Part shown: positions 12,684-60,305 of the stretch, in pieces
Position numbering within the stretch: the stretch's first letter is position 1
Layout of the letters: each line of letters opens with the position of its first letter
Translations under genes and position numbers: made by a program
NCBI GenBank assembly: GCA_903834135.1
Contig: CAILHZ010000019.1
Coordinates: 1 to 64,000 of the forward strand
Length of the DNA: 64,000 nucleotides
Source: an uncultured Opitutia bacterium
Lineage (GTDB): Bacteria; Verrucomicrobiota; Verrucomicrobiia; Opitutales; Opitutaceae
Direction: 5' to 3'
Notes under the pieces: generated by a model
The model's input: the letters and a program-made list of their open reading frames with translations, nothing else
What the model was told of the DNA's origin: nothing
The model's database searches: none

Positions 12684-13619
12684 TTAATTTACGCAGTTAA
12701 TAATAGAGCCCTCGGTAAAGACTTTTATATTAGTAGCTGCGATTTCTATTAAGCGCTCTCTTGCTTTAGTCGAAGCCCAAGCAACGTGAGGGGTGATGAT
12801 GCAATTTTTTGCATTCAGCAGTGGGTTTGTAGCAGTTGGAGGTTCAGTTGAAAGTACATCAAGTCCTGCACCTGCAATTCTACCTGTATTAAGAGCAGAT
12901 GCTAAATCTGATTCGTTAATTAATCCTCCACGGCTGGTATTGATAAGCAGAGCTGATGACTTCATCCAGCCAATGGTTCTCTCACAAATAATTTCCTTAG
13001 TTAATGCAGTAAGCGGACAATTTAGGCTTATGACATCACTTGTTCTAATCACTGACTCGAGTTGTTTATCGCCACCTGTTCTTGTTGCAAATTGCGCATG
13101 CATACCGAGTGCTTCAGCTACTTTAGCAATTGCAGTACCAATTCTACCAGAACCAATAATTCCAAGTGTTTTACCTGCTAACTCAATTGGGGATTTATCC
13201 CAGTAACAAAAATCAAGCGACTTCACCCATTGGCCTTGTTGCACTGTTTTTGCTAGGTGACCCGTTTGCTGGGTTAATTCAAGAAGTAGTGAGATAGCAT
13301 GCTGCGCTACAGAAGGAGTTCCATACTCGGGCACATTGGTAACTGGAATAGATCTTTCCCGTGCCGCTTTGCTATCAACTACATTATGACCCGTGGCGAG
13401 TACGCCTATATACTTGAGTTTTGGCAGAGCTGCCAGGGTTGTGGCATCTAAAGGGGTTTTGTTTGTAAGTAAGATATCTGCCTCTAAGGAACGTTCTATG
13501 ATGAGGTGAGCTGGGGTACGGTCATAAAACGTGACAGCTCCTAATCGTTCTAAGGCGGCCCATGACAAATCGCCAGGGCTCAATGTAAAGCTGTCTAGGA
13601 TAACAATTTTGAAGTCCAT
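12684..13619 (-). CDS. D-2-hydroxyacid dehydrogenase (glycerate/hydroxypyruvate type)
   Basis: A 311-residue NAD-dependent D-2-hydroxyacid dehydrogenase, the usual length. The Rossmann motif GIIGSGRIGTAIA is at residues 153-165. The catalytic Arg230 (NTSRGGLIN), Glu259 (DVLSTEPP) and His278 (ITPHVAWAS) are all present. Closest in pattern to glycerate dehydrogenase/hydroxypyruvate reductase (HprA), which interconverts hydroxypyruvate and D-glycerate; other 2-ketoacids remain possible. It converges with the glycosidase gene with 17 bases between the stops, and its neighbours also handle sugar acids. Confidence 0.85.
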   Translation of the reverse strand: MDFKIVILDSFTLSPGDLSWAALERLGAVTFYDRTPAHLIIERSLEADILLTNKTPLDATTLAALPKLKYIGVLATGHNVVDSKAARERSIPVTNVPEYGTPSVAQHAISLLLELTQQTGHLAKTVQQGQWVKSLDFCYWDKSPIELAGKTLGIIGSGRIGTAIAKVAEALGMHAQFATRTGGDKQLESVIRTSDVISLNCPLTALTKEIICERTIGWMKSSALLINTSRGGLINESDLASALNTGRIAGAGLDVLSTEPPTATNPLLNAKNCIITPHVAWASTKARERLIEIAATNIKVFTEGSIINCVN

Positions 13620-13743
13620 TCGAGAGGTAATTTAAGACAAAGAAACTAAATTGCTATATTTGTTCGCAGAGAGCTCCAAATCGAGCCAAAAGGTTAGGGT
13701 GGCTATATTATGCTGCAACTTTAGCTCTACTTACTTGAATTCT

Positions 13744-13986
13744 ATGTCTGAAAATAAACCTAAAGATCTTCTACACGGCGTGACCCTAGAGGCTATTTTG
13801 AAAGAACTAGTTGAAGAGTTTGGCTGGGAGAAGATGGGTAAGATAATCGATATTCGGTGCTTTAATTTCGATCCTAGTATTAAATCGAGTCTTCAGTTTC
13901 TAAGACGTACTCCCTGGGCTAGAAAGAAGGTTGAGACTTTGTATCTTGATATGGTCCGCAATCGTATCCAGCACGGAGGAGCTTAA
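13744..13986 (+). CDS. VF530-family (DUF2132) small DNA-binding-like protein
   Basis: An 80-residue protein starting MSENKPKDLLHGVTLE. An upstream in-frame start at 13651 would add 31 residues that do not resemble the family. The sequence follows the VF530 pattern: LHGVTLEAILKELVEEFGW, then INIRCF-like DIRCFNFDPS, and SSLQFLRRTPWARKKVE. The structure-known homologue from Vibrio is a small helical protein related to DNA-binding folds; the function is not established. Its stop overlaps the convergent altronate dehydratase-like gene by four bases. Confidence 0.85.
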   Translation: MSENKPKDLLHGVTLEAILKELVEEFGWEKMGKIIDIRCFNFDPSIKSSLQFLRRTPWARKKVETLYLDMVRNRIQHGGA

Positions 13987-46939: not shown

Positions 46940-47986
46940 TTATAACAGTGTCGGTTCCGACTGTTCCCTAGATGGTTCGATTTTGGGAGCTTGTTTTTTC
47001 TTGTCTGCATTAAGTTGGGCTTCGGTCCACCTAGATAATTCAGTCCATTTTACTGCATTTTGTTTTTCAGTTATACCTTCACCTACAGCGATTATTTTAT
47101 AGCTGCCCTTATACGGTGCACATCTAAGAAAACTAACACGCTTATCTGGCGATAGTGCAGGATCAGTATTTAATCGGATTGAATTGAGCAGTCGCTCAGG
47201 TATCGGAATAGATTGAGTGTTTTCTTCGTTATCCACAGGAGAGATATATAAACGACTTGGGTCATCAGTTCTTATGGGAAGGGGGCGTACGACAATTGTT
47301 TTAGGAGGTGCATGATCAGGAATTACAGGAGATATTTTTGGTTTTTTATCCAGGTCTTCAGATGGCAGTGTTTGCTTTAGGTCTACCTTCATTTCTGATG
47401 GCTTTTTATCATTTACGATAGGTTTCATATCTATACCTACTACAGTGTAACCTAAACGTGAAAGATGCTGGTAGCAGCTCGTTAATGTATTAGCCACTTC
47501 GGAGTCTAGGGCATGTGTGGTTGATTCAATGTATGGGCGCTTACCAGGTTCTGTTTTTGTCCAGATTACATGGATGCCTCCTTTATCTGCATAGATTGCC
47601 TTCATTTGAATATCACTAGGTTCTGAATCCAGTACGGGGTGAGAAGCCTTAATCTTTTTACCGGCAACACTTGGGTGCGGTTTAATTTCTGAGTCTACTG
47701 ATTGTTCTACGGTTATGGAAGGTTCCTGATCTACCGATTTTCCGAATAGGTTACTAATCCATATACCTATTTTTTTATACCAGGCAGAGTGATGTCTCTC
47801 TTTGGTTTGTTTTAAGGAGTGCTTAAGTGCGATTTCGAATAGTGTTTGCAGTGCATGAGTTGAGGCTTGGTCACTCTCTTTTTTAATCCAAATTGATTGC
47901 CCCTGTAAGTTTAGACTTACTCCAGATTGACTAAATCTAAGTTCATCAAGTCGTGTACTTTCAAGAAGCGGGGGAGTGGTGTTCAT
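46940..47986 (-). CDS. Uncharacterised protein divergent from the Tra-like secretion locus
   Basis: A 348-residue protein I do not recognise. It has no signal peptide or membrane segment. Residues about 10-65 (VSLNLQGQSIWIKK ... THALQTLFEIALKH) and about 125-180 (MKAIYADKGGIHVIWTKTEP ... CYQHLSRLGYTVV) both follow a beta-beta-alpha pattern and may be repeated units. They are separated by a charged linker, and a Lys/Pro-rich linker (about 185-240) leads to a C-terminal domain (about 240-330). The gene starts 52 bases from the secretion ATPase gene and shares a symmetrical promoter region with it, so a joint role with the secretion-like complex (cytosolic adaptor, regulator or substrate) is inferred, not shown. 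Confidence 0.65.
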   Translation of the reverse strand: MNTTPPLLESTRLDELRFSQSGVSLNLQGQSIWIKKESDQASTHALQTLFEIALKHSLKQTKERHHSAWYKKIGIWISNLFGKSVDQEPSITVEQSVDSEIKPHPSVAGKKIKASHPVLDSEPSDIQMKAIYADKGGIHVIWTKTEPGKRPYIESTTHALDSEVANTLTSCYQHLSRLGYTVVGIDMKPIVNDKKPSEMKVDLKQTLPSEDLDKKPKISPVIPDHAPPKTIVVRPLPIRTDDPSRLYISPVDNEENTQSIPIPERLLNSIRLNTDPALSPDKRVSFLRCAPYKGSYKIIAVGEGITEKQNAVKWTELSRWTEAQLNADKKKQAPKIEPSREQSEPTLL

Positions 47987-48038: not shown

Positions 48039-49553
48039 ATGAGCATTTCTACTGATCAGTTACCTAATCTTATTCCTTTTAGTCTTACCGATGTAGATTT
48101 GGCCACATTCGAAAAACTAAGGCAGTTGTGTACTCGGTTACAGTTTTTACCAACCTTGTCCGAAGGAGTTCTCTTACAGCTAGCAATGGTCGATCCTTAC
48201 AGTGAAAGGTCCTTTGCTGAGATTAGAAATTTTACACATCAAGAGGTTAGAGCCTTTGGAATTAGCCTAGCTGATTTTGAAAAGGTGATGACCTTAATTG
48301 AGTCTAAATCAACACGTGTAGATAAAATTAAAGACCATCAGACGCCAAGCGTTCGTCCTAAATTTTGGGGTAACTGCTCAAGTGCTCGGCATCTTGTTTT
48401 AGAGATTGTTCGCGTTGCCTTCCACATAGGTGCATCAGACATTTTTATTGATCAACAAGAGTCGTGGACAGAAGTAGCAATGACAGTAAGTGGGAAAAAA
48501 GAAATTCTACCTCCCTTGGTTAGGGAGACTGGTAACTCTACCATGAAAGCGTTTAAAGAGATGGCAGGGATTGCTACTCAAGGTTCACAAAGCTGGCAGT
48601 CTGGTTTTGCACGTTGTGCGATTGAAGATCAATGGGCTGAACTGCGTGTAGAAATTACGCCCACTATTCATGGGGAAAGTTTGGTTGCCCGCGTTCAAAA
48701 TAGATCCCTGCAAATTGAGCGAATGAAAACACTTCCCTTTTATACACCTGAGCAGAGATTACTTGCAGGACAGTGCCTTGGGCAAAAACAGGGGCTTATC
48801 CTAGCAACGGGACCAACAGGTCACGGTAAAACAACAACTCTTTATGCCTGTTTAGGCCAATTAGATCGTGCCCAGCTAAATATTAGAACCTTGGAAGATC
48901 CAGTAGAATTTACTGTACCTTGGATTACGCAAATTCCCGTGGGCTCTGGGACACAGCGTTCCTATGCAGACGGACTAAAAAGTCTACTAAGGCAAGCCCC
49001 GCATGTCATTTTAATGGGTGAGATACGCGATACGTTAGTGGCTCAAACATGTGTTGAGGCTGTTGATACAGGGCACCTTATATTTGCTACGTTACATACC
49101 CGGGATGCCATTGGAGCAATTTCAAGGCTTATGGATTTAGGTCTCAGTGGTCGCTCAATAGGTACAGCTTTATCCTTGGTGATTAGTCAGCGCTTGATGC
49201 GAAAACTTTGTCCCGAGTGCAAACAGAAGAAGAAAATAGACGAATCTCAGATACGTCACTTTAGACGTTATGATCTTGTTGCTCCAGAGTGGCTGTGGAT
49301 AAGCCGTGGGTGCTCGTTATGTGGAGGTATTGGGGAGAAAGGGGTGATGCCAGTTTTTGAACTTTTAAGGCCATCTGCTCATTTTGGTATGACTACTGAG
49401 TTAGGTCGGGCTGATCGTATGAATTTTGATGAAAGTAAATTAAGAAATCTTTGGTTAAAGTCAGGTGGATTGCCTCTTATGCGTGAAGCACTTGTACGTG
49501 TTTCTTTAGGAGATATTACTTATAACGAAGCTCTTAAATATGAGCAGACCTAG
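48039..49553 (+). CDS. GspE/PilB-type secretion ATPase
   Basis: A 504-residue hexameric ATPase of the type II secretion/type IV pilus assembly class. The Walker A is GPTGHGKTTTLYA (258-270), the Asp box LEDPVEF (285-291), Walker B VILMGEIRD (323-331) and the His box HLIFATLHTRDAIGA (346-360). A tetracysteine zinc motif, Cys391/Cys394 and Cys425/Cys428, is as in GspE and PilB. The middle domain has ASDIFIDQQ, near the family's A-S-D-I-H-I-E. It is not a VirB4/TraC-type ATPase. The start at 48039 is preferred, since the longer frame (47976) would run through the inverted repeat. No gspF, gspG or pilin gene is nearby; the following genes encode type IV secretion core proteins. Confidence 0.9.
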   Translation: MSISTDQLPNLIPFSLTDVDLATFEKLRQLCTRLQFLPTLSEGVLLQLAMVDPYSERSFAEIRNFTHQEVRAFGISLADFEKVMTLIESKSTRVDKIKDHQTPSVRPKFWGNCSSARHLVLEIVRVAFHIGASDIFIDQQESWTEVAMTVSGKKEILPPLVRETGNSTMKAFKEMAGIATQGSQSWQSGFARCAIEDQWAELRVEITPTIHGESLVARVQNRSLQIERMKTLPFYTPEQRLLAGQCLGQKQGLILATGPTGHGKTTTLYACLGQLDRAQLNIRTLEDPVEFTVPWITQIPVGSGTQRSYADGLKSLLRQAPHVILMGEIRDTLVAQTCVEAVDTGHLIFATLHTRDAIGAISRLMDLGLSGRSIGTALSLVISQRLMRKLCPECKQKKKIDESQIRHFRRYDLVAPEWLWISRGCSLCGGIGEKGVMPVFELLRPSAHFGMTTELGRADRMNFDESKLRNLWLKSGGLPLMREALVRVSLGDITYNEALKYEQT

Positions 49554-49596
49554 GTCTAAATAAAGGGGGTATGATATACACGTGCTTTAATAGTAT

Positions 49597-50346
49597 GTGG
49601 CTATCGCTGAAATAAATGATTCACATTTAGATAAGAAAGTAACTGGAGTAAAACCTTCAGCTAAGGGCAGTTCTTATCAGGAAATTAAGATGCCTACAGA
49701 TACTGAGAAAAGGCATCTGAATTTTTCGTGGCTTATTCATGAACAACGAATCATCGCAATGATGCTTGGAGTATTAGGTTTTGCTGCAGCTTCTGTGTGG
49801 GGGCTTACTATTACATTAACTGTAAAGCCAACACTTGTTGTTCGTGCTGCAGCCTCTTTAAAGCAAGAAGCTGCCAAATTTACGGGTACTCCCTCAGTGT
49901 CATACGATCAACTCTCTTTCTTTATTACAGCAGTTCTGCCTCGGTTTTACTGTGTAGATGAAAATGGGTATCCTTTCCTTCTTTTACTACAGGGCCTAGT
50001 AGATCCGAATTTAATTACCCGAGTTGAGTCAGGCTTTATTACTTCAGCTGCAGATTTGAAAGCTAACCATATGACCCAGTCACTAACGATCACCGCTATC
50101 AGTGATGTGGTAGCTGATGATAAGCTGGGTAGAGCAGCAGCATATGTGAAGGGTTACGTGAGTGTTACATTGCGCCGTACCGAAGCTCAGGTCTATCCGT
50201 ACCGAGCTCAGGTACTGATGGCTGTTAACCCCATAGGGCTTCTAAACCCATATCCTTTTTATGTTTTAAAGTGTGAGGAGAAGTTAGGGCCAAAGGCTTT
50301 AGACTGGGACTTAGTACACGACAATAAACGCTTTCTGGATTTGTAA
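49597..50346 (+). CDS. TraE/VirB8-like inner membrane protein 1
   Basis: A 249-residue protein with a cytosolic N-terminus, one membrane helix (about residues 51-75, MMLGVLGFAAASVWGLTI) and a periplasmic domain. The stretch from about 105 on (SYDQLSFFITAVLPRF, LLLLQGLVDPNLITRVE, and AAYVKGYVSVTLRR) follows the pattern of F-plasmid TraE and the VirB8 fold, including the LLQ-x-x-x-P block and the V-x-G-x-[VL] strand. These proteins form the inner-membrane periplasmic scaffold of type IV secretion systems. The start codon at 49597 is GTG and is uncertain. It lies 43 bases after the ATPase gene. Confidence 0.65.
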   Translation: MAIAEINDSHLDKKVTGVKPSAKGSSYQEIKMPTDTEKRHLNFSWLIHEQRIIAMMLGVLGFAAASVWGLTITLTVKPTLVVRAAASLKQEAAKFTGTPSVSYDQLSFFITAVLPRFYCVDENGYPFLLLLQGLVDPNLITRVESGFITSAADLKANHMTQSLTITAISDVVADDKLGRAAAYVKGYVSVTLRRTEAQVYPYRAQVLMAVNPIGLLNPYPFYVLKCEEKLGPKALDWDLVHDNKRFLDL

Positions 50347-50364
50347 CAACCTATAGACAATAAC

Positions 50365-51054
50365 ATGAATGCAGGAGCTAAACCAATAGAGGTTAATTCA
50401 AGGTGGTCGGTTAGTAATGAATCCACTGATTTCTTTAATGAAGCAGACAGGTTTAAACGTAATTTTATAATTCTAGTCGTTGCATGCGTAGTGCTAATAG
50501 CTGCCCTAAGCATAGGCTTATACCGGCTGCATGAGGTTGCGCTTAAGCCTCCTCAAATTATCGGGATATCTCACGGCCTAATGTTTAGTGCAGATCCCAA
50601 GTCTTTAGCGAGTGTAGAAGAAACAGATTTGGATTTGCAGTTCTCAGATACAGTTGAGGTCTTATTTGGACGCACTGAAAAAGGACTACCCGAAGCAATT
50701 TATGAATACTGTGTTCCTGAAGTAGTAACATCTGTTGATAGAGACTACCGAGATTCAAAACAAAAGTATCCGGCAGGGTTTGTGCAGACACTCTCCATTA
50801 CTGGATTTAAACGCGGGAGTGTGGTACCTGGGTTAAGGCATATGCGTTATAGCGGTGTCTTGACATCGCGCTCCTTATTGAAAGCTCAAACAAGTGTAAT
50901 TTATGTAGATGTAACTTTTGCAATTACTGCACCTAGTAAGCTTAATATAAGTGGATGGAAATTGGTGCGCTTAGATGCAATTAATCGCAGCGACTACTAT
51001 AAAGATGAGCATTCAGCTGCTCTTTTAAAGGCACTTAATTCTGATGCGAAGTAA
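50365..51054 (+). CDS. TraE/VirB8-like inner membrane protein 2
   Basis: A 229-residue protein with one membrane helix (about residues 32-54, NFIILVVACVVLIAALSIGL) and a periplasmic domain. The segment EYCVPEVVTSVDRDYRDSKQ, then GFVQTLSITGFKRGSVV and RYSGVLTSR, parallels the region of TraE that runs from the conserved proline to the G-V-L strand. It is shorter at the N-terminus than its neighbour and shares little exact sequence with it, so the two are distant paralogues placed side by side. Two VirB8-like proteins could form a mixed scaffold. The assignment is by pattern and gene order. Confidence 0.55.
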   Translation: MNAGAKPIEVNSRWSVSNESTDFFNEADRFKRNFIILVVACVVLIAALSIGLYRLHEVALKPPQIIGISHGLMFSADPKSLASVEETDLDLQFSDTVEVLFGRTEKGLPEAIYEYCVPEVVTSVDRDYRDSKQKYPAGFVQTLSITGFKRGSVVPGLRHMRYSGVLTSRSLLKAQTSVIYVDVTFAITAPSKLNISGWKLVRLDAINRSDYYKDEHSAALLKALNSDAK

Positions 51055-51072
51055 GTTGTATTTACTAAAAAC

Positions 51073-51891
51073 ATGATTCGATCATTTAAATATCTTATTT
51101 TAAATCTCCTGCTTTCACCTTGGGTATATTGTCAGGCTAATGATACATGTGAAGTATTACATTCTGGAATTCCCACTGAAATATACATTGCACCAGGACG
51201 TTCAACGACTGTTGTCTTAAGAACTAAAGAGCATGTATCTTCTATTTCACTTTCATCACCAATTATAACGTACAAGTACGATAAAGTACTCAATCAAATT
51301 GAAATCACTGCAACGGGTAGAACAGCCGGTTTAGAAACTAATTTAAACGTTCGAATCGGGCCAGATGTTTACGTTTTAATAATTAAAATAGTCAATGACG
51401 TTAGAGTTCAGTTTGTACGTATCTTCTCATTTGAGTCTGGAGTAGCGCTAAGTGATGAAAGTGCATTAATGCATGCCCGAGCGCTTAAGCCCGCATACAT
51501 TGATTTACTTGGTGCAGTAAAAGTAATTGAACGTATGCAGAATGATTTAGTTTATAGGCATACCCATCTTGAAGTGCAACATGCAGACTTGAAGTATAGC
51601 TATATATGGAATGACTGCTTTATTACCTTGGAAAGCTGCGATCAATTTATAGACAAAGATCTACTCGTTTTTCGCATTGTTTGGACTAACAACACGCATG
51701 ATGCACTTTATCTGGATACTCGGCAGTTAGCATTATTTATTGGAGATAAAAATTTACCTATAACGGCTACAACAAGGAAAGCGCTGGGTAATATTATTAC
51801 TCCTGGAAAAAAGGATGTTATTTATCTGGCTATCCAAGGTTACCGCATAAGCCGTAGTAACGCTTTCGAATTAAGATTACCCGCTGGTTAG
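51073..51891 (+). CDS. TraK/VirB9-like periplasmic core protein
   Basis: A 272-residue protein with a signal peptide (residues 1-22, ending WVYCQA). The N-terminal half has a beta-rich region, EIYIAPGRSTTVVLRTKEHV, then YDKVLNQIEITATG and TNLNVRIGPDVYVLIIKI, in the manner of VirB9/TraK N-domains (a hinge E, then x-N-L-x-V and Y-x-L strands). The C-terminal half (DLLVFRIVWTNNTHDALYLD ...) is another beta-sandwich-like region. Such proteins form, with VirB7 and VirB10, the outer-membrane core ring. It sits in the position of traK in F. The gene ends 26 bases before the VirB10-like gene. Confidence 0.6.
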   Translation: MIRSFKYLILNLLLSPWVYCQANDTCEVLHSGIPTEIYIAPGRSTTVVLRTKEHVSSISLSSPIITYKYDKVLNQIEITATGRTAGLETNLNVRIGPDVYVLIIKIVNDVRVQFVRIFSFESGVALSDESALMHARALKPAYIDLLGAVKVIERMQNDLVYRHTHLEVQHADLKYSYIWNDCFITLESCDQFIDKDLLVFRIVWTNNTHDALYLDTRQLALFIGDKNLPITATTRKALGNIITPGKKDVIYLAIQGYRISRSNAFELRLPAG

Positions 51892-51917
51892 ATCATCTTA
51901 GGCGAACTGTATTTAAA

Positions 51918-53090
51918 ATGGATCTTTTATTTAGATATAAACCAGATGGAAGTCGGGCGTATAGCTATTTTGTGTATCTTGGCTTCTTTGTAATAGCTGT
52001 AGTAGCTGTATTTGGATTACATCAAAAGACTCTTAATGGAGCTAATCGATCAGCGACAGTACGTGGTGGACATGTTGGTCATATTACCCAGCAAGCTGCA
52101 ATGATTGAGCCTGTGCATGCTGATAAAATAATTACTCCTACACAGGTGAATAGTTTTCGTTTACCTGAAGAACTAGAAAATAAAACAGTGCAAGCATCTG
52201 AAGTTAAAGAGCCAAAATTTAGCCCGATTGCAGCAGCATTAACTGATCCACAGCTGAGTAGCGATGTGTTCTCAGCTACTGAAAATAAAGGATATAAAGT
52301 GCTTATACCTGCATTCCCGCCTGATAAGATAAAATCTATTACATCAGCTCTAAAGGATGAGGGGAGTACTCTAGGTGATCATATAAATAGTGTTAATTAT
52401 TATGATCCTGAATTAACTGCAAATGAAGCGCATCAAACTGCGCCAATTAAAGTAAACAAAGATCGCTCGCTAGTATATTTAGTACCACGCGGTTCAACCT
52501 TAGAGGTTTGTTTATTATCTACAGTTGATACGAGTAACCCTGGGGCAATCATTGAGTGCGCACTTGTGAATGATTTAGTTTTCAATCATGTTAAGCAAAT
52601 AGACTTTGGAGTTCATATTCTGGGTAAACTAGCAGGAAACCCAGCTCGTGGTCGTATTAATATTAGCTTTGATACGATTGTTACTCCTTTAGGACTAGAA
52701 GTGCCAATTAATGCCAGTGTCGTTGAATGTGATGAGAGTTTACTAAACTATAGACCCGGGATCGCAGCTGAACTTATTTCACCTCCTAACTGGGTGCAGG
52801 CCAGTCCTTATATTGCGGAAGTAGTTACGGGTTTCTTAGGATATTTCAAATCGAGGGTAAATACTCCAGTAGTAGTTACAGCAGGTGTAGTTAATTTTCA
52901 ATCAACCGCTGCTGACGAACTTAAAAGGGCTGGTGCTCAAGCTTCAGCAACTGCGATTGAAGATCTCGCAGTAGCAAAGCAGAGGCAGTGGAATGAAATG
53001 TACGGTGCCTATTATTTGGTACACGCAGGAACACTGTGCTCTCTTCAACTTCAGGCAGATTTAGATCTGCACCGTCTGCATGAGCTTTAA
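51918..53090 (+). CDS. TraB/VirB10-like envelope-spanning protein
   Basis: A 390-residue protein with a short cytosolic N-terminus, a membrane helix (about residues 17-35, YFVYLGFFVIAVVAVFGL), a long Pro/Lys-containing periplasmic linker (about 60-170) and a C-terminal beta-barrel-like domain. The C-terminal domain has YLVPRGSTLEVCLLSTVDTS, the VirB10/TrbI opening (P-x-G-[ST]-x-[LI] then L-x-T-x-[IV]-[DN]). It continues with VKQIDFGVHILGKLAGNPARGRI, the conserved G-x-x-[LI]-x-G-x-x-x-x-x-x-x-x-R-x block, and FDTIVTPLGLEVPI. It would bridge the inner and outer membranes. It corresponds to traB in the F order. Confidence 0.75.
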   Translation: MDLLFRYKPDGSRAYSYFVYLGFFVIAVVAVFGLHQKTLNGANRSATVRGGHVGHITQQAAMIEPVHADKIITPTQVNSFRLPEELENKTVQASEVKEPKFSPIAAALTDPQLSSDVFSATENKGYKVLIPAFPPDKIKSITSALKDEGSTLGDHINSVNYYDPELTANEAHQTAPIKVNKDRSLVYLVPRGSTLEVCLLSTVDTSNPGAIIECALVNDLVFNHVKQIDFGVHILGKLAGNPARGRINISFDTIVTPLGLEVPINASVVECDESLLNYRPGIAAELISPPNWVQASPYIAEVVTGFLGYFKSRVNTPVVVTAGVVNFQSTAADELKRAGAQASATAIEDLAVAKQRQWNEMYGAYYLVHAGTLCSLQLQADLDLHRLHEL

Positions 53091-53118
53091 ATAGCAATAA
53101 TCATGCTTTTTTTTACCT

Positions 53119-53679
53119 GTGCATACTTTAAATAAAATAAACCATTTTCTTTTGGGGGTACTTAGCGGTACTTGTTTATTAACGATGAGTTGTTCAACGC
53201 CGTCTCATACTGAGACTGCTTTACCTGTGCAGATCAGTTATCCAATGCCAGATAAGGCTATTGCAGTTACCAATCCAAGCCCATCAAACGGAGTTAACCC
53301 AGTCTACCGTAATCCAACTATAGCTGTTGTTACTTTAAGGTCTCACATTGATGAGCAGGGCCGATTGCTTGGACCTCAAGTCATGTATCAGATTACGGAT
53401 CCGGGCGGATGGAATATAGATTCAATTGAGCAAGATGGAACTAAGATGCCACTTTTTGGAGATGTTCTTTCGTTGGCAGCTTTGAAACAATCTCCTAACA
53501 ATCCTAGTACCAAACTTGAGCCTTTATTGGATATATCCCAACGCTCTAAAGTTATTATTACCGGACTTATGGATCCAATGGAACGGTCAAAGGCAGAGGC
53601 ATTTAGAAGAGAAACGAAGTCAGATTCTGACCTCATTTATGACCCTAGTGCTGGGTGGCTATTACTTCCCATACTGTAG
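53119..53679 (+). CDS. TraV/VirB7-like lipoprotein
   Basis: A 186-residue protein beginning at GTG, with a hydrophobic signal (FLLGVLSGTCLLTMSC) ending in a Cys for lipid attachment. The middle region VTLRSHIDEQGRLLGPQVMY followed by ITDPGGW resembles the C-terminal block of F TraV (I-D-x-Q, then a Pro, hydrophobic residues, I-x-P-x-x-W). TraV is the outer-membrane lipoprotein of the F core complex and lies after traB, as here. The remainder is Pro/Asn-rich. It is the last gene of the locus, 128 bases before the acyl carrier protein gene. The match is short, so homology is inferred. Confidence 0.55.
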   Translation: MHTLNKINHFLLGVLSGTCLLTMSCSTPSHTETALPVQISYPMPDKAIAVTNPSPSNGVNPVYRNPTIAVVTLRSHIDEQGRLLGPQVMYQITDPGGWNIDSIEQDGTKMPLFGDVLSLAALKQSPNNPSTKLEPLLDISQRSKVIITGLMDPMERSKAEAFRRETKSDSDLIYDPSAGWLLLPIL

Positions 53680-53807: not shown

Positions 53808-54179
53808 ATGATCACAGCTGAACAGGCACATAAAAATATAGAAGAGTCGCTCGTAGGTTTCCCTCAGGAGATCACGGAAGCATACCTGACGTTTGCTACA
53901 AAAGCTGATTTAGCCTGTTTGGATAAAGTGGTAATCGGGATATTACAATTTTATCTGGCTAAGGCTCCTAAGGTACCGCTTGCCGAAATGCCTGGTACAA
54001 CACGCTTACGTGAAGATTTAGGCATGGATTCACTTACCATGATGGATACGGTTTTTATGGTTGAGGGGCTTCTTTCAATTAAATTAGAAGATCAGGACTT
54101 AGTTGAATTAGTAACCTTGGATAATTTACGTCGATTAATTCGCAGCCGTTTTTCAGGATTAGTTAATACACAGCCTTAA
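53808..54179 (+). CDS. Acyl carrier protein
   Basis: A 123-residue carrier protein, longer than the roughly 80 of fatty acid synthesis AcpP because of an N-terminal extension of about 35 residues. The 4'-phosphopantetheine attachment Ser75 lies in REDLGMDSLTMMD, the canonical D-S-L. The surrounding helices fit the ACP fold (LDKVVIGILQFYLA; VEGLLSIKLEDQDLVELVTL). It is the first gene of a rightward operon with ketosynthase, hydrolase, phosphatase and aminotransferase. It likely carries the acyl intermediate of this dedicated pathway rather than serving general lipid synthesis. Confidence 0.9.
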   Translation: MITAEQAHKNIEESLVGFPQEITEAYLTFATKADLACLDKVVIGILQFYLAKAPKVPLAEMPGTTRLREDLGMDSLTMMDTVFMVEGLLSIKLEDQDLVELVTLDNLRRLIRSRFSGLVNTQP

Positions 54180-54188
54180 GTTTTACCT

Positions 54189-55460
54189 ATGAGCCAGCCG
54201 AGGGTAGTTATTTCGGGATTAGGCTTCATTACGAGTATAGGCAATTCACATAAATGTGTAAGCGAAAGTCTTCGCTTCATGCGTTCAGGTATTGAATCTA
54301 TCGAATTTATTTCGGGAGTAAAATTACCTATAACATTAGCGGGAACAGTTAAGGGGTTTGATACACATGCTGCAACTTGGGCTGGCTGGTTGTGGCCGCA
54401 TGGCTATAATTTTAGTAGAGATTCACTACGTACTATGCCTCCGCATGGACTTTATGCATTGTGTGCAACAGAGCAAATGGTGGCAGATGCTAAACTTAGT
54501 CCTGCTGAATTAGCATCAGATGAGACAGCTCTTTTTTGTAGTTCAGGGGGGTCTCCTAAATTACTCAGGCAATATCTTAATCAGATTATTGATTCAAATG
54601 GGCAGCGCGTTTCCCCTGCGAGTATAGTCAGTACTATCGCCGGAACGCTTAATTTTAATCTCTCAGCACACTATCATATTCGAGGTGCTGTAGCTGGATT
54701 TTCATCTGCATGTGCTTCAACAACACAAGCGCTAGGCTATGGTTTTGATGAAATTAGGTTAGGCAGACATAAACGCGTTATCGTAGTGGGAGCAGAAGAA
54801 GTTGGGTTAGAAGCAACATATGGTTTTCACGGTATGCGCGCATTATCTCGTCAGTGCGATCCTCTGCAGGCCTCTCGACCTTTTGATAAGAAAAGAGACG
54901 GCTTTGTGGCAACGGGTGGCAGTGTGGCACTTGTGTTAGAAGATATAGAAACTGCGATTAAACGAGGAGCACCAATCTACGCTGAAGTACTTGGCTGGGG
55001 CCAAGCAGGAGATGGTCATAATCCTGCAATTTCTGATCCTGAAGGTCTTGGGTTAGCAACAGCTATGAAACGAGCCCTGAAGGCTGCTCAACTCGAGCCT
55101 GGTTTAATCGACTATGTGAATGCTCACGCAACATCAACTCCTGCTGGAGATGCATCTGAGGCCAAAGCCCTTAAATCTGTATTTACTAGCTCTGGTGCAA
55201 ATCCAAAAATAAGCAGTACTAAAGCGCTTACGGGCCATGGTCTGTCTATGTCAGGGGTAATGGAGACTGCCTTTTGTGCATTAGCTTTGAAGGAAGCCTT
55301 CATGCCTGCTTCAGCTAATATCACAGAACTTGATCCGGTGTGTGAGGGATTAAGAATTATTCAATCTACTCAAAATATTGCAGCGCGCTACATCCTTAAA
55401 AATAGTAGCGGCTTTGGCGGCAGTAATGTGAGTCTAGTGCTCGGTAAAGCAGAATTCTAA
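54189..55460 (+). CDS. Beta-ketoacyl-ACP synthase (FabF-like)
   Basis: A 423-residue condensing enzyme with the Cys-His-His triad: Cys175 (SSACASTTQ), His313 (VNAHATSTPAGD) and His350 (TKALTGHGLSMSG). The C-terminus has the Gly loop NSSGFGGSNVS. It would extend an ACP-bound acyl chain by decarboxylative condensation with malonyl-ACP. It starts nine bases after the ACP gene, and no ketoreductase, dehydratase or acyltransferase gene is in the operon. That means either a single condensation or sharing with the housekeeping fatty acid machinery. Confidence 0.92.
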   Translation: MSQPRVVISGLGFITSIGNSHKCVSESLRFMRSGIESIEFISGVKLPITLAGTVKGFDTHAATWAGWLWPHGYNFSRDSLRTMPPHGLYALCATEQMVADAKLSPAELASDETALFCSSGGSPKLLRQYLNQIIDSNGQRVSPASIVSTIAGTLNFNLSAHYHIRGAVAGFSSACASTTQALGYGFDEIRLGRHKRVIVVGAEEVGLEATYGFHGMRALSRQCDPLQASRPFDKKRDGFVATGGSVALVLEDIETAIKRGAPIYAEVLGWGQAGDGHNPAISDPEGLGLATAMKRALKAAQLEPGLIDYVNAHATSTPAGDASEAKALKSVFTSSGANPKISSTKALTGHGLSMSGVMETAFCALALKEAFMPASANITELDPVCEGLRIIQSTQNIAARYILKNSSGFGGSNVSLVLGKAEF

Positions 55461-55469
55461 ACACTGACA

Positions 55470-56345
55470 ATGTCACTTTCTTTTGCACTGCGTCCTCCAA
55501 GCGGTAAGATCGTTCAACATTTAGATTACGGCATTATTATGCCTGGGACTAATGGTAAAGCCTTTATATTGATTCACGGACTTACGGGTGCTCCTAATGA
55601 AATGAGTTTCATTGCATGGTATCTTAATTCAGAGGGCTACACGGTGCATTGTCCAAGACTTGCCCATCACGGAGAACCAATGCAGGTGATTAAAGAAGCT
55701 AACTGGGAAGAATTTTACGTTAGTGTAAAAGATTGTTTTTTAAATTTAAAAAAAACCTATTCCCAAGTGTATGTCGGAGGTTTATCGATGGGAGCCCTTC
55801 TTGCTCTTTTACTTGCTGCAGAGTTTCCTGCTGAAGTTGCTGGAGTGAGTTGTTTGTCGCCTACATTTTTCTATGATGGATGGAATGTACCTTGGTATCA
55901 AAGGCTGCTTCCTTTAGTTGCTCGTACAGGGTTAGGCCGCTATTTTTATTTTAAAGAAAAACCACCTTATGGTTTAAAAAGTGAGAGGCTTAGAGAGAAA
56001 GTACATCAGTATTATCAACACGCATCACTCTCTGAGTTGAATGAGGTAGATAAATTGGGGTACCCTTACTTCCCGGTACGTCTTTTAGTGCAGCTACAGC
56101 AATTGGTGGACTACGTGACTCCTCGATTATCCCAGGTTAATTGTCCGTGTCAGGTTATTCAGGCAAGACATGATGACATGAGTAGTCCAAAGAATGCAGA
56201 ATTTGTGAATGCCCAAGTCGCATCTGTGAGAAAAGAAATTTTCTATTTAGAAAATTCTTATCATGTTATTACCGCCGATCAGGAGCGGGGTAAAGTGGGA
56301 GCTCGTATACTTGAATTTTTTGCACAGGAGGTTTCTAGTGCCTAA
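55470..56345 (+). CDS. Alpha/beta hydrolase, carboxylesterase/monoacylglycerol lipase-like
   Basis: A 291-residue cytosolic serine hydrolase: oxyanion region LIHGLTGAPNEM, nucleophile elbow YVGGLSMGALLAL, acid QARHDDMSSP and His in NSYHVITAD. It fits the Est30/lipase group that acts on acyl esters. In the operon it might release the acyl product from ACP (thioesterase-like) or hydrolyse an ester intermediate. Its end overlaps the next gene by eight bases. Confidence 0.88.
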   Translation: MSLSFALRPPSGKIVQHLDYGIIMPGTNGKAFILIHGLTGAPNEMSFIAWYLNSEGYTVHCPRLAHHGEPMQVIKEANWEEFYVSVKDCFLNLKKTYSQVYVGGLSMGALLALLLAAEFPAEVAGVSCLSPTFFYDGWNVPWYQRLLPLVARTGLGRYFYFKEKPPYGLKSERLREKVHQYYQHASLSELNEVDKLGYPYFPVRLLVQLQQLVDYVTPRLSQVNCPCQVIQARHDDMSSPKNAEFVNAQVASVRKEIFYLENSYHVITADQERGKVGARILEFFAQEVSSA

Positions 56346-57018
56346 AGCATTTAATACCGAGTATCTGCTTTACATTGATTTTGATAATACGATATCGCGT
56401 GGAGATGTGCTGGATAGCGTCGTAGAAAAATTTGCAGAAGGCACTGTATGGCAGGTGCTCGAAAATGAATGGGCAAGCGGTAAAATAGGGGCTAGGGCAT
56501 GTCTAGATGGGCAACTACGTTCTATTAAAGCAACGTCTGAGGCACTAGCATCTCATTTAGACTCTATTATAATTGACCCTGGTTTTGCGCAGATTTTAAA
56601 GGTCACACACGAGCATAATATCGAAACGGCTATTTTAAGTGATAATTTTGACCTGATTTTGAACCCTATTTTGAAACGTTTTGGGTTCTCGCATATCGCC
56701 TGTTATTCAAACCATTTAGAGCGCAGTGGGGAAACGTTTATCCCCTCATTTCCCTACTGGAATAAGGACTGTCCTGGGTGCGCCCACTGTAAAAAGACGC
56801 ATTTTATCCCCAGGGGTGAGGACGTGCGTAAAGTCATCTATATAGGCGATGGCAGATCAGATATTTGTCCTTCCCTTAATTCAGACATCGTATTTGCCAA
56901 AGATAGTCTTTTAGCCTATTTTACTAAGTCAGGTTTAAGCTGCATACCTTATAACGACCTGACGGAAGTCGCAGAAAAGTTAACACACCTCATCTATGAC
57001 AACATCACTACCCACTAA
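56338..57018 (+). CDS. HAD-superfamily phosphatase, MtnX-like
   Basis: A 226-residue phosphatase. The start is GTG at 56338, supported by a strong AGGAGG (56326-56331) six bases upstream, rather than the longer frame from 56263. The catalytic DFDNTISRGDV gives the D-x-D-x-T motif, ILSDNFD follows as motif II, and YIGDGRSDICPS is the acidic motif IV. The Cys cluster CPGCAHCKKTHF resembles the metal-binding insertion of MtnX-like enzymes. In a methionine-salvage setting MtnX dephosphorylates an enediol, but no other salvage genes are here, so a pathway-specific phosphate ester is more likely. Confidence 0.85.
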   Translation: MPKAFNTEYLLYIDFDNTISRGDVLDSVVEKFAEGTVWQVLENEWASGKIGARACLDGQLRSIKATSEALASHLDSIIIDPGFAQILKVTHEHNIETAILSDNFDLILNPILKRFGFSHIACYSNHLERSGETFIPSFPYWNKDCPGCAHCKKTHFIPRGEDVRKVIYIGDGRSDICPSLNSDIVFAKDSLLAYFTKSGLSCIPYNDLTEVAEKLTHLIYDNITTH

Positions 57019-58405
57019 TCTAAATAAAGGCGCATTATCTGAAGAAGAGCTTCTTAAGTTAGAAGCCAACTACTGTTCCTGGGGGGATACTGTTCATTAT
57101 GCCAAAGAATTAAATTTTTTTAGCGAAGCTAAAGGCAGCTTTTTGTATGATAGACGCGGTAATGAATTCTTAGATCTTCAGATGTGGTATTCAGCTGCGA
57201 ATTTCGGCTACCGAAATCCATTGCTTAACGATGCCTTAAAAAAGCAAATAGATGTGCTACCGCAATTAGCATGTCAGTATTTACATGAAGATCGTGTGCT
57301 TCTTGCTACAAAGCTTGCTCAGAAGATCGAAAAAAAGTTCGGTGTTAAAGGACGTATTCATTTTAATGTTGGTGGTGCCTCAGCCATTGAGGATGCCATG
57401 AAGGTCGTACGCAACCATACAGGCAAGAATCATACCTTTGCTTTCATGGGTGGCTATCATGGCAGAACACTGGGAGCTACATCGATTACTTCTAGTTACC
57501 GCTACCGTGAAAGGTTTGGTCATTTCGGAGACCGTGCTAATTTCATTCCATATCCTTACTGCTTTCGTTGTCATTTAGGCCTGAAACCAGAGACTTGCGG
57601 AACGGCTTGCTTAGGACAGTTTGAAAAAATGTTTGAATCGGAGTATTACTCAGTAGTAAATCCGAAGAATAACAAGAGTGAGTACGGCGCTTTCTTTATT
57701 GAGCCCGTTCAAGCTACAGGTGGCTACATAGTACCACCGATGAATTACTTCAAGGATCTTAAAAAGACCTTAGATAAGTATGGTATTCTCTTAGTGGTTG
57801 ATGAAATCCAGATGGGCTTTTACCGAACCGGTAAATTTATGTCTATTGAGCATTTCGATGTTGTACCTGACGTGATCGTTTTAGGTAAGGCAATGACGAA
57901 TGGCTTAAATCCAATTTCAGCTATCTGGGCCAGAGAGGATCTGATTTCTCCTCAGGTGTTCCCACCTGGCTCGACGCATTCAACTTTCTCTGCAAATCCA
58001 CTAGGCACCGCGACTGCGCTCGCTGTCATGGACTTAATTGAAAGTGAGGATTTTGAAGCACGTGTGATGAAAACAGGCGCTTATTTCCTTAACAAATTAC
58101 AGGAATTAAAATCACGTCATAAGCAGATTGGTCACGTTGAAGGACTTGGTCTCGCACTAAGAATGGAAATGTGCACCGATGACGGCCATACGCCAAATCG
58201 TGCTTTAACAGACGATATTATGAATATCGGACTTGAGGGTAAGCTCACTAAGGGAGGTAAGACTAAGGGTCTTATTCTTGATATTGGTGGCTACTACAAG
58301 AATGTGTTCACCTTAGCTCCATCGCTTTACATCACAGAACAAGAAATTGATCTAGGTATAGCGCTTTTTGAAGAAGCGCTTATTCGGGCTTTAGCAAAGA
58401 AGTAA
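56996..58405 (+). CDS. Class III aminotransferase, PLP-dependent
   Basis: A 469-residue fold-type I aminotransferase of the 4-aminobutyrate/ornithine/diaminobutyrate group. Motifs include HFNVGGASAIEDAMKVVRN, FMGGYHGRTLGATSIT, the Cys-rich YCFRCHLGLKPETCGTACL, VVDEIQMGFYRTGKF with the PLP-binding Asp, and the Schiff-base Lys in VLGKAMTNGLNPIS. It would transfer an amino group to a terminal aldehyde or ketone. Its start lies 23 bases inside the phosphatase gene. It converges with the GNAT gene, overlapping by 26 bases. Confidence 0.92.
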   Translation: MTTSLPTNLNKGALSEEELLKLEANYCSWGDTVHYAKELNFFSEAKGSFLYDRRGNEFLDLQMWYSAANFGYRNPLLNDALKKQIDVLPQLACQYLHEDRVLLATKLAQKIEKKFGVKGRIHFNVGGASAIEDAMKVVRNHTGKNHTFAFMGGYHGRTLGATSITSSYRYRERFGHFGDRANFIPYPYCFRCHLGLKPETCGTACLGQFEKMFESEYYSVVNPKNNKSEYGAFFIEPVQATGGYIVPPMNYFKDLKKTLDKYGILLVVDEIQMGFYRTGKFMSIEHFDVVPDVIVLGKAMTNGLNPISAIWAREDLISPQVFPPGSTHSTFSANPLGTATALAVMDLIESEDFEARVMKTGAYFLNKLQELKSRHKQIGHVEGLGLALRMEMCTDDGHTPNRALTDDIMNIGLEGKLTKGGKTKGLILDIGGYYKNVFTLAPSLYITEQEIDLGIALFEEALIRALAKK

Positions 58406-59570
58406 GCTCGGCCTTAGGGTGAGCCTTTAAATAGTAAGCTAAATCGGCATCCAGTGACTTCCATGTTACTTGGCTGCCGATTTTTTTATAAATAAAATTA
58501 ATCACGCTGTTTTGGTGGCGTACATGATTATATAGAGGTATCAGCGTGTGCCCTAGGTCTAGCTTTGCTCGGTAGCCTGTTTGGCCACTTTGTATTTCCG
58601 TAGCTCCCTCGTTGCAGGCAGCTTCAATAGCGGCTTCGAATAAACGGAAATACAAAAATGTTTTACCTGCTCTTGAATAATCAATACCGATAAATTTATT
58701 GATGAAGCGCTTACCAATTACAAAACCGAGCATAAAGGTGACAAGTTTACCGGTCGCAGCTTCGCGTTGAAGGATAAAACGACTCTGCTCTGCTAAACTG
58801 ATCTGCTTAAAAAAAGTTATATCTAAGCGCTCAAATTTAGTACTCCCTTTTTCGTACGTTTGCAGAAATAAAGAGAAGATCTCAGTTAATTCACTTTCCG
58901 ATGGATTAGAGATAACTGTAGTAACAAGAGGAAGGACTTCGTTTGAGCGTCTTAATTTCTTAAGTAAATTATGCCGGTGCGACGAGGAGAGACCTCCTAT
59001 ATAGGCATCTTTTGTTGACTCAGGAATTAAGACTACGGTTCCTGGGTAACTAGGGAGTGTGAAGAAACCTGATTTTTCACACTGGGAGTTTAAGCTATGG
59101 ATGTCAGATTTCTCAAAGTCTTTAAAAACAAGCATTGGTGCCTTCAGTGCTACAGCTTCTTTTTTACAGGCAAAAATGATACTCGCAGTAAAATCGGTAA
59201 GATTTAAACCCTCACGTAATCCAATAGTGCCACTGTCTGAACAGGGTGAGCCAATAAATAATGTTCTTTGATAGCCGACACGAGGAATGATTCGAGCTAA
59301 CTGCTTAAGTGGCCAAGCAACAATTGCTGGTGCAACCAAACTTAAAGGTACGTTATGTACAAAGCAGGGTATAATTCCTACATTATTACCTTCGTATTCA
59401 ATAAGCCCGTAGAAAAACGTAAATTGATCTTCCAGTTTACTGTTCTCAAGTGCTTTGTACCAGAATTGGCCTTCCAAAGGAGCTCTAAAACAACTCTGCC
59501 ACAGTTCAGAATCAAGAACCTCGTGGGTTTCTTTAAACGTAATCTTTAACGCTGATAAATTAAGCGCCAT
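58380..59570 (-). CDS. GNAT/FemAB-like acyltransferase
   Basis: A 396-residue protein resembling the CelD/BcsL and FemAB-type GNAT tandem proteins (Acetyltransf_6 region about residues 160-320). Typical are SHRHNLLKKLRRSNEV with a basic helix, and FIGIDYSRAGKTFLYFRLFEAAIEAA with GATEIQSGQTGYRAKLDLG. Such enzymes transfer acyl or aminoacyl groups to amines. The start at 59570 is preferred as it leaves one base after the upstream stop; an earlier in-frame start at 59591 overlaps it. It faces the aminotransferase gene, so it may acylate that operon's amine product (inference). Confidence 0.72.
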   Translation of the reverse strand: MALNLSALKITFKETHEVLDSELWQSCFRAPLEGQFWYKALENSKLEDQFTFFYGLIEYEGNNVGIIPCFVHNVPLSLVAPAIVAWPLKQLARIIPRVGYQRTLFIGSPCSDSGTIGLREGLNLTDFTASIIFACKKEAVALKAPMLVFKDFEKSDIHSLNSQCEKSGFFTLPSYPGTVVLIPESTKDAYIGGLSSSHRHNLLKKLRRSNEVLPLVTTVISNPSESELTEIFSLFLQTYEKGSTKFERLDITFFKQISLAEQSRFILQREAATGKLVTFMLGFVIGKRFINKFIGIDYSRAGKTFLYFRLFEAAIEAACNEGATEIQSGQTGYRAKLDLGHTLIPLYNHVRHQNSVINFIYKKIGSQVTWKSLDADLAYYLKAHPKAELTSLLKPE

Positions 59571-59571
59571 G

Positions 59572-59910
59572 TTACAAAGAGACCAAAGCACTTCCGATTA
59601 CAATACTCGCTATGCCTAGCCAGCGAATCGTTGTTATTTTTTCTTTTAAATAAAAGTGAGAAAGTAGTGCTACTGCTACAAAGCATAGGCTTCCGATTGG
59701 GAAAGCTACACTCACATCCAAGTTGTTAAGAGCAATTGTATAGAATCCTATTTCAAGACAGTAAAGTATGACTCCTAAGGTTAGCCATAATTTAGGCCTT
59801 ACTGGTTTAACTACGTTACTGGTAGCTCCCTGTTTAAGGCAAAGCTGAGCCAAGCTTTCTATAAGTACTGCTAAAATTAAAATCGCTAAACCAAATGCGT
59901 GCGAACTCAT
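59572..59910 (-). CDS. Small EamA/SMR-type transporter subunit 2
   Basis: A 112-residue inner membrane protein with four predicted helices (AFGLAILILAVLIESLAQLCLKQGA, KLWLTLGVILYCLEIGFYTI, VAFPIGSLCFVAVALLSHF, and WLGIASIVIGSALVSL). It has the SMR/EmrE-like pattern with a Glu in helix 1 and a GSLCFVAV stretch in helix 3. It overlaps the preceding SMR gene by four bases and probably forms a heterodimer with it, like ArnE/ArnF or EbrAB. Confidence 0.8.
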   Translation of the reverse strand: MSSHAFGLAILILAVLIESLAQLCLKQGATSNVVKPVRPKLWLTLGVILYCLEIGFYTIALNNLDVSVAFPIGSLCFVAVALLSHFYLKEKITTIRWLGIASIVIGSALVSL

Positions 59911-60305
59911 AGCGTTGTTTGAGCTTTAGTTCTACTAACTAAAAAAACACCACCTAAGATAAACAAAATGCCAACAGTATGACTAAGTGAGACTTTTTCA
60001 TGGAGTAAAAGACTTGAGCAAGTAAGTACTGATACATAGCTCAGTGCAGTCATCGGTTGTGCAAAGCTTAAGTCGATTAAGGCTAGAACCTTAATCCAGT
60101 TTAAAAGCTGTAAACAGAAAAATCCCATAGCTACATAAAAGTAGCGGCTAGCGAGGGCACTTAAGGCAAGTGTCCTAAAAGATCCATCATGGGGAGCAGA
60201 AGAGGCTGCTAACTTCCATGTAATTTGAATCACTGTATCGAGGATTATAGCTGCTATAATCCCGAGGCTAGCTGCTTTGGGAAACTTGGGCTTAAGTGTT
60301 GGCAC
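59907..60305 (-). CDS. Small EamA/SMR-type transporter subunit 1
   Basis: A 132-residue four-helix inner membrane protein of the same fold. Helix 1 is SLGIIAAIILDTVIQITWKLAA, helix 2 YFYVAMGFFCLQLLNWIKV, helix 3 QPMTALSYVSVLTCSSLLL, and helix 4 TVGILFILGGVFLVSRT. The helix-1 Glu of EmrE is replaced by Asp/Gln. It is the first gene of the minus-strand operon SMR1-SMR2-GNAT. Paired small transporters of the ArnE/ArnF kind flip lipid-linked amino sugars, so export of an acyl-amine product is one option. Confidence 0.78.
   Translation of the reverse strand: MPTLKPKFPKAASLGIIAAIILDTVIQITWKLAASSAPHDGSFRTLALSALASRYFYVAMGFFCLQLLNWIKVLALIDLSFAQPMTALSYVSVLTCSSLLLHEKVSLSHTVGILFILGGVFLVSRTKAQTTL

Follow-up and report, generated by a model that had tools for sequence, protein, structure and literature searches.

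Envelope core genes behind a GspE/PilB-class ATPase as a probable part of a dispersed type IV secretion/type IV pilus hybrid in Opitutaceae

In a stretch of 64,000 nucleotides from an uncultured Opitutia bacterium (assembly GCA_903834135.1, contig CAILHZ010000019.1, positions 1 to 64,000; hereafter the window, its contig being C19 and its family f1), five genes resembling the envelope core of a conjugative type IV secretion system (T4SS) lie directly behind a gene for a GspE/PilB-class ATPase, the class associated with type II secretion systems (T2SS) and type IV pili (T4P). The question raised by this locus is to which machine such a combination belongs. The operon, designated op3, is probably the envelope core, together with an auxiliary ATPase, of a T4SS/T4P hybrid whose other parts are encoded at three further places of the genome. 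Judged from the sequences, the complete system is most likely a T4SS combined with a pilus of the mannose-sensitive haemagglutinin (MSHA) type, devoted to contact-dependent DNA transfer and dispersed in the organism of the window. The parts are present, they are linked to each other in relatives, and their genes are intact.

Op3 is made of six open reading frames, all located on the + strand and all confirmed in the window. They are separated by gaps of 43, 18, 18, 26 and 28 bp, and 128 bp precede the next downstream gene. The GspE/PilB-class ATPase (48039..49553, +), recognized by the T2SSE and PilB models, has a length of 504 aa when translated from ATG 48039, the open frame beginning upstream at GTG 47976. 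It is followed by VirB8-like protein a (49597..50346, +), with one N-terminal transmembrane helix (52-70), and by VirB8-like protein b (50365..51054, +), of which it is a probable paralogue and which displays one N-terminal transmembrane helix and a predicted VirB8/DotI-like periplasmic domain. Next come a VirB9/TraK-like protein (51073..51891, +), a VirB10/TraB/TrbI-like protein with one N-terminal transmembrane helix (51918..53090, +) and a putative TraV/VirB7-like lipoprotein (53119..53679, +). The same order is kept in all five other genomes with a readable locus (G672, G675, G676, G577 and G584), and the arrangement is therefore not due to chance; the ATPase orthologues of these genomes match with E 2.3e-161 to 9.6e-181. 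Only a part of op3 is present in G601, on a 5.6-kb contig. The linkage of a T4SS core in F-like order to a GspE/PilB-class ATPase, proposed in an earlier note made from the window alone, is thus borne out, as is the gene order that it suggested to look for in relatives.

The identity of the core proteins is more apparent from families than from single sequences. Taken alone, the window proteins match the Pfam models CagX (0.13), TrbI (0.17) and TraV (0.024) under the cut-offs, and VirB10 reaches 5.3e-5 with the NCBIfam model T4SS_VirB10, again under cut-off. The two VirB8-like proteins produced no relevant match in Pfam or NCBIfam as single sequences, and the Pfam model TraE matched nothing in the window genome. 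VirB9 aligned with its orthologues is related to the VirB9 of other loci (HHalign E 4.3e-12 over 250 columns), and the window sequence matches the hidden Markov model of hybrid-locus VirB9 at E 2e-6; its match to the VirB9 profile of f30, a family of the same class, is weak (0.0021). VirB10 with orthologues matches the TrbI-type family at a profile-profile E of 2e-12 and the VirB10 structure 6gyb in the PDB at 0.0062. Compared with VirB10 of the G080-type loci described below, the single window sequence is negative and the alignment with seven orthologues positive. The G601 orthologues (locus L176) reach 1.2e-4 with CagX for VirB9 and 7.6e-8 with TrbI for VirB10, both under cut-off. Among the op3 core proteins, a fold prediction was made for VirB8b alone. 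The first 24 of the 50 matches listed are T4SS VirB8-type or R388 inner-complex chains, and the predicted fold, nearest to DotI and TraM, is that of a DotI-like VirB8. VirB8a aligns with VirB8b at E 2.6e-4 with a probability of only 43%, six control pairs giving E 0.18-0.52. No relevant Pfam or PDB profile match was obtained for VirB8a, and the sequence-level comparisons of VirB8a and VirB8b with VirB8 of the G080-type and f30 loci failed (0.046-0.1). PDB profile searches with A8, A9, A10 and A12 gave no useful match, A9 returning two ribosomal chance matches. The lipoprotein orthologues match TraV at 0.016-0.038 in 3 of the 4 scanned, under cut-off, and Cys19 is invariant in all seven aligned sequences. 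A VirB8/VirB9/VirB10 envelope core of the conjugative T4SS type is therefore present. The homologies proposed in the earlier note (those of TraE, TraK and TraV by eye) gain strength from the orthologues for VirB9, VirB10 and VirB8b, whereas its TraE proteins find no TraE match and TraV stays weak.

The earlier note had seen no VirB4, VirD4, relaxase, pilin or TraH/F/G/U/W gene in the window, and genome searches placed none of VirB4, VirD4, GspF and the secretin on C19. The latter parts are distributed over contigs C16 and C22. The first piece, op1 on C16 (VirB2-VirB6, GspB, GspF and Pil1 genes), encodes a VirB2/TrbC-like protein (0.0028, under cut-off), a VirB4 identified by P-loop_TraG (5.6e-23, over cut-off), a GspB-like protein (T2SSB 0.0026, under cut-off), GspF (T2SSF 6.5e-32, over cut-off) and the pilin Pil1 (N_methyl 1.9e-4, at cut-off). 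VirB3-, VirB5- and VirB6-like proteins, without Pfam match, are recognized there by position, size and topology, and a small lipoprotein belongs to the gene row around GspF. The best model of this VirB4 is the F-type TraC TIGR02746 (1.7e-53, 181.7 of 567 bits, under cut-off); its match to PF12846 is also under cut-off. The second piece, op2, lies on C16 at 220 kb, about 190 kb from op1, and holds a secretin, PilB, a second pilin and a GspL-like protein, in this order. The best models are MshL for the secretin (1.5e-59, under the MshL cut-off) and GspE for PilB (2.5e-108), and the two pilins have 274 and 326 aa. Searches of the genome for secretins and for GspF domains each returned one protein on C22 and one on C16, the C16 secretin (over cut-off) lying at 220 kb; C22 also holds a T2SS-like set, ordinary in appearance, whose pseudopilins were named by eye. 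The window genome thus contains a secretin, GspE/PilB, GspF and pilins. VirD4 is encoded on C22 at 99-101 kb and is orthologous (E 5.3e-269) to the G584 protein, through which it is recognized as a coupling protein (TraG-D_C 3.5e-7, over cut-off). It was missed by PF02534, which matched nothing in the window genome, and in NCBIfam it matches only a VirD4-like model (3.1e-4). VirD4 is present in all four genus genomes tested, in G676 as two pieces on two contigs. It has retained companions: four proteins beside it (L188:7530-10697 and 13105-13911) are matched by homologues in the G577/G584 locus. The genes of all four pieces are open frames of normal length.

The relationship between these pieces becomes visible in G577 and G584, two genomes of a second genus, where a single contig carries op3, VirD4, op1, op2 and a relaxase-like gene (PF03432, 0.0015) in a span of about 46 kb. 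All 26 proteins of the window genome that were compared, including the four VirD4 neighbours, have a homologue on the G577/G584 contigs with 22-65% identity (VirD4 61%, VirB4 57%), and 7 of the 26 also match G080, each at lower identity. Op1, op2, op3 and VirD4 therefore most likely descend from one ancestral locus. The ratio of nonsynonymous to synonymous substitution rates between G577 and G584 is below 0.35 in the nine genes compared. The earlier note had considered that the genes might sit beside a complete conjugation locus, as in a plasmid-derived island. This holds by half: the G577/G584 locus is conjugation-like, yet it is itself a T4SS/T4P hybrid. The distribution was followed with VirB10 in 177 genomes of the taxonomic order, 387 of the phylum (E <= 0.1) and 252 of the family (E <= 0.01). 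The order yielded the window genome alone and the phylum 15 genomes, the window genome included, with several chance matches. The family yielded 8, namely the window genome, three genomes of the same genus, G577, G584, G601 and G709. No relative was found in the viral contigs scanned with the ATPase and VirB10, the plasmid search gave no match, and PHROGs offered nothing useful except for the ATPase. Four loci with VirB10-like scores (L057 in G415, L058, L059 and L060) were dropped as lacking further T4SS matches; in L057, the only one whose gene list was read, the match lies on the strand opposite to a better gene.

What the window ATPase does in such a system can be approached from its family. 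It matches T2SSE at 2.3e-70, and its best NCBIfam models are PilB (9.5e-75, 252 bits) and GspE (1.1e-73). It is neither of the VirB11 type (3.3e-8, 32.9 of 250 bits) nor of the DotB type (2.9e-15, 56.3 of 463 bits), and a weak MshEN match (0.0057) is under cut-off. The Walker A and Walker B motifs and the Cys pairs are kept in the six aligned window-type ATPases. In a tree of 69 sequences the window ATPase groups with its five orthologues in a distinct clade, with 100% support and a long stem, apart from the op2 PilB and from the f30 and T2SS/T4P ATPases. It represents a separate subfamily, perhaps in the place of VirB11. The window genome has three GspE-class ATPases (E <= 1e-20) and two GspF proteins; the op2 PilB goes with gspF in relatives, which leaves the window ATPase for the T4SS. 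A precedent is DotB, a T4SS ATPase described in the available part of PMC6153414 as closer to PilT/EpsE than to VirB11. By analogy, a VirB11-like role is supported by the f30 arrangement, in which a GspE-class ATPase stands beside VirB8 in 5 of 6 loci (L054 having no VirB8 match). The f30 stretches fetched (60 kb in G303) contain VirB4 and a TrbI-type VirB10 over cut-off, with other VirB genes named by position, and no match to GspF, pilin or secretin at E 0.01. The f30 loci L050, L052-L056 and L072 also show two VirB2-like pilins and VirB3-like, VirB4, ParB-like and sigma factor-like proteins. The GspE-type motor that the earlier note had imagined to power the core is thus linked to it, but need not be the only or the main motor because a separate PilB comes with the pilus module.

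A second type of hybrid locus was observed in G080 and in two G318 loci, where a single cluster reads VirB2-VirB4-VirB5-VirB6-VirB8-VirB9-VirB10-gspB-gspF-pil1-secretin-pilB-pil2-gspL. Profiles of these 14 genes were seeded from G080 (locus L136) and G318. When the genome collection was scanned with a pilin alignment, 27 loci emerged, 26 of them named Verrucomicrobia, mostly Opitutaceae or Opitutae. All 14 genes are present in 16 of the 27, and 14 of these 16 are collinear according to automatic picks; contig ends often truncate the remaining loci. Where a locus has both genes of a pair, adjacency (correct order, at most 300 bp apart) is observed for virB10-gspB in 22/22 loci, gspB-gspF in 23/23, gspF-pil1 in 25/26 and secretin-pilB in 21/21. 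The pil1 and secretin genes are separate (median 2.4 kb, 0/23 within 300 bp), and a repeat-rich protein is encoded between them in G080 and G318 (L127:19078-19848, L128:17579-19489, L129:3-1142); this protein is a candidate contact adhesin and was not seen in op1 or op2 of the window genome. Two G080-type loci (L120:11900-13301 and L109:11643-13039) carry, divergent from virB2, a small protein resembling ribbon-helix-helix regulators by eye and a ClpB-D2-like AAA protein (AAA_2 9.3e-23 in L109). The one locus with another name (Anaerolinea) is L144 on the 4.5-kb contig PNKC01000108.1, a GspF-Pil1-secretin fragment that may be mis-binned.

The pilus modules of the two types are related, and their T4SS backbones are different. 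The op2 PilB of the window genome forms a 100% clade with those of G577/G584, joined to the G080-type PilBs at 91%. Between the window genome and G080, the identity is 36-44% for secretin, PilB, pil1 and pil2 and 27% over 187 residues for VirB4; no blastp match at 1e-3 was obtained between the VirB8-VirB10 proteins of the two. In the VirB4 tree, to be read with its long branches (1.9) and limited sampling in mind, the clade of the window genome, G577 and G584 lies far from 21 G080-type tips. A sister position of the two is rejected (83 log units worse, approximately unbiased test p 5.7e-6). The nearest kin of the G080-type tips are in loci L111, L114, L116 and L118, where no match to GspF, pilin or secretin was found. 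The pilus module would have been either recruited twice or swapped between T4SS backbones, a reading limited by the long branches and the sampling.

A mechanism can be proposed from these assignments. The pilins would be polymerized by PilB on GspF, aligned by GspL and GspB, and the pilus would exit through the MshL-like secretin and make or hold contact with another cell. VirD4 would deliver the substrate, most likely single-stranded DNA, to VirB4, and VirB4, VirB6, VirB8, VirB9, VirB10 and the lipoprotein would form the translocation channel across the envelope. The window ATPase may dock to the T4SS at its base, the position occupied by VirB11 or DotB elsewhere, and the pilus may be physically coupled to the channel via GspB, encoded beside VirB10. 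The relaxase of the relatives was not found in the dispersed window lineage, whose system may therefore use another relaxase or serve DNA or protein export. The most integrated version of this hybrid, in which a built-in and physically coupled T4P/T2SS belongs to a DNA-translocation machine of Opitutaceae, with two deeply different T4SS backbones, a GspE-class ATPase in the VirB11 place in one of them and a domesticated, dispersed form in the window lineage, is put forward as a tentative and rather unlikely extension. The hybrid envelope machine foreseen in the earlier note is thus retained as a hybrid, with a core accompanied by parts encoded elsewhere in the genome, namely VirB2-VirB6, GspF, two pilins, a secretin, a second PilB and VirD4.

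Several observations weigh against the hybrid explanation. The modules are unlinked in the window genome, so their membership of one system rests on the relatives, and of the 13 genus genomes listed only four proved to carry op3. The names of VirB8a and of VirB3, VirB5, VirB6 and the GspL-like protein of the window genome derive from position, topology or orthology, and the TraV assignment is weak. The Pfam score of the G577 relaxase is under cut-off, and no match to it was found in the four genus genomes searched. GspF is only 27% identical to that of G080, and GspB and GspL gave no blastp match there, so that the secretin, PilB and the two pilins carry the case for related pilus modules; GspF, GspB and GspL do match the G080-type profiles, at 5e-52, 1e-8 and 7e-12, respectively. 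The G080-type loci lack the window ATPase subfamily, which is therefore not essential to the hybrid.

The best surviving alternative is that the loci house two machines without physical coupling, namely a conjugative T4SS and an independent MSHA-like pilus whose sole role is to stabilize mating pairs, as in IncI plasmids. We consider its chances to be slightly below even; it is compatible with the parts list of the hybrid explanation, and the two likelihoods are not exclusive. IncI-like T4SSs have a DotB/TraJ ATPase and paired DotI/DotJ. As in the IncI plasmids R64 and TP114, whose T4SS is Dot/Icm-like, a conjugative T4SS and a complete T4P are found on one element, and the predicted VirB8b fold is nearest to DotI and TraM. 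The pilus of the IncI2 plasmid TP114 stabilizes mating pairs (PMC9045228, in the part available), the IncI pilus helps transfer in liquid (parts of PMC12857230 and PMC9045228), and the pilus module described here has its own secretin and PilB. According to the available part of PMC12857230, IncI plasmids hold their T4SS and T4P as two clusters, whereas here gspB, gspF and the pilin gene directly follow the virB genes with the near-constant adjacency reported above; related pilus modules moreover accompany two different T4SS backbones. VirB4 is here nearest to F-type TraC and the secretin to MshL, also unlike IncI.

A more restricted alternative concerns the ATPase only, which would be a second pilus motor acting on GspF rather than a stand-in for VirB11. 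Its PilB/GspE class, the MshEN match mentioned above and the Cys pairs are consistent with this role. The ATPase nevertheless heads the virB8-virB10 operon in each of the five other genomes, and it is the secretin-adjoining PilB that is linked to gspF in relatives, which makes a second motor a rather doubtful option. A conjugative element that has decayed and been dispersed through rearrangement, leaving no working machine in the organism, would account for the dispersal over four places, the patchy occurrence in the genus and the failure to find a G577-type relaxase in the window genome, in searches confined to that family. It is regarded as unlikely in view of the open frames of normal length, the identities of VirD4 and VirB4 to G577/G584, the intact six-gene operon in three other genomes of the genus and a guanine-cytosine content of op3 (40.7%) compared with that of the rest of the window (43.2%). 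A DNA-uptake machine, in which a competence T4SS like Helicobacter ComB would act with a DNA-catching pilus, suits the lack of a G577-type relaxase and the presence of a pilus ATPase and platform, and is improbable given the retention of VirD4 at 61% identity, ComB having no VirD4 in the available part of PMC12857230, and the relaxase-like gene of relatives.

The hybrid explanation can also be set against other known machines. The F-type system shares the E-K-B-V order, and its TraC is the best model for the VirB4 of the window genome, at a score under the TraC cut-off; it is not known to have a GspF/secretin module. It also lacks VirB11 (PMC12857230, available part). MSHA-type T4P/T2SS loci share the fixed order of secretin, GspE/PilB, GspF, pilin and GspL/GspB-like genes, which here stand in operon with virB genes and include pilins of the lengths given above. 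Like DotB, the window ATPase is a candidate T4SS ATPase of PilT/EpsE affinity, unlike it by a far better match to PilB/GspE than to DotB. PAPI-1 of Pseudomonas combines T4P genes, VirB4 and VirD4 in one DNA-transfer system to which the pilus is essential; as related in part of PMC12857230, only VirB4 and VirD4 are clear T4SS homologues there, whereas here VirB2-VirB10 are nearly all assigned. Whether the T4P takes part in DNA delivery itself is an open question raised by the PAPI-1 model in the same source. Conjugative systems with T4P, such as IncI plasmids and PAPI-1, are thus already known. What is new here is that both machines share a gene row and are nearly complete, that two backbones occur, and that the window lineage has a dispersed form. 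No paper describing this hybrid was found in the literature searched, most subscription papers lying outside its coverage, and the available parts of PMC6668835 and PMC7251102 do not mention it. Two machines with near-complete parts lists are here placed in one gene row across many genomes of one family. Their coupling is directly testable, since the genes are side by side and related pilus modules accompany two T4SS backbones. The window ATPase is also a naturally occurring example of a GspE-class enzyme possibly working for a T4SS, and the hybrid is one more kind of DNA-transfer system to seek in Verrucomicrobiota.

The neighbourhood of op3 calls for a few remarks. A divergent gene for a 348-aa protein without family match (46940..47986, -) possibly belongs to the module. 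It has homologues in three other genomes, which adjoin op3 in L169 and L170; the G577 homologue is on the same contig, about 18 kb outside the block (L197). Downstream, positions 53808-60305 encode, as named by eye, an acyl carrier protein, a ketosynthase, an alpha/beta hydrolase, a HAD phosphatase, a class III aminotransferase, a FemAB/GNAT-like protein and two small EmrE-like transporters, resembling a lipid or small-molecule pathway. A third arrangement joining a T4SS core and T2SS genes is found in G709 (L177/L178, G709:C1:6745000-6780000), where genes resembling pseudopilins by eye, then a secretin, GspE and GspF, come after VirB8- and VirB10-like genes. Finally, a 7.3-kb contig, perhaps part of a plasmid (L051, G473:C131), carries VirB10-like, VirB9-like and lipoprotein genes beside primase-like and ArdC-like genes, mostly named by eye.

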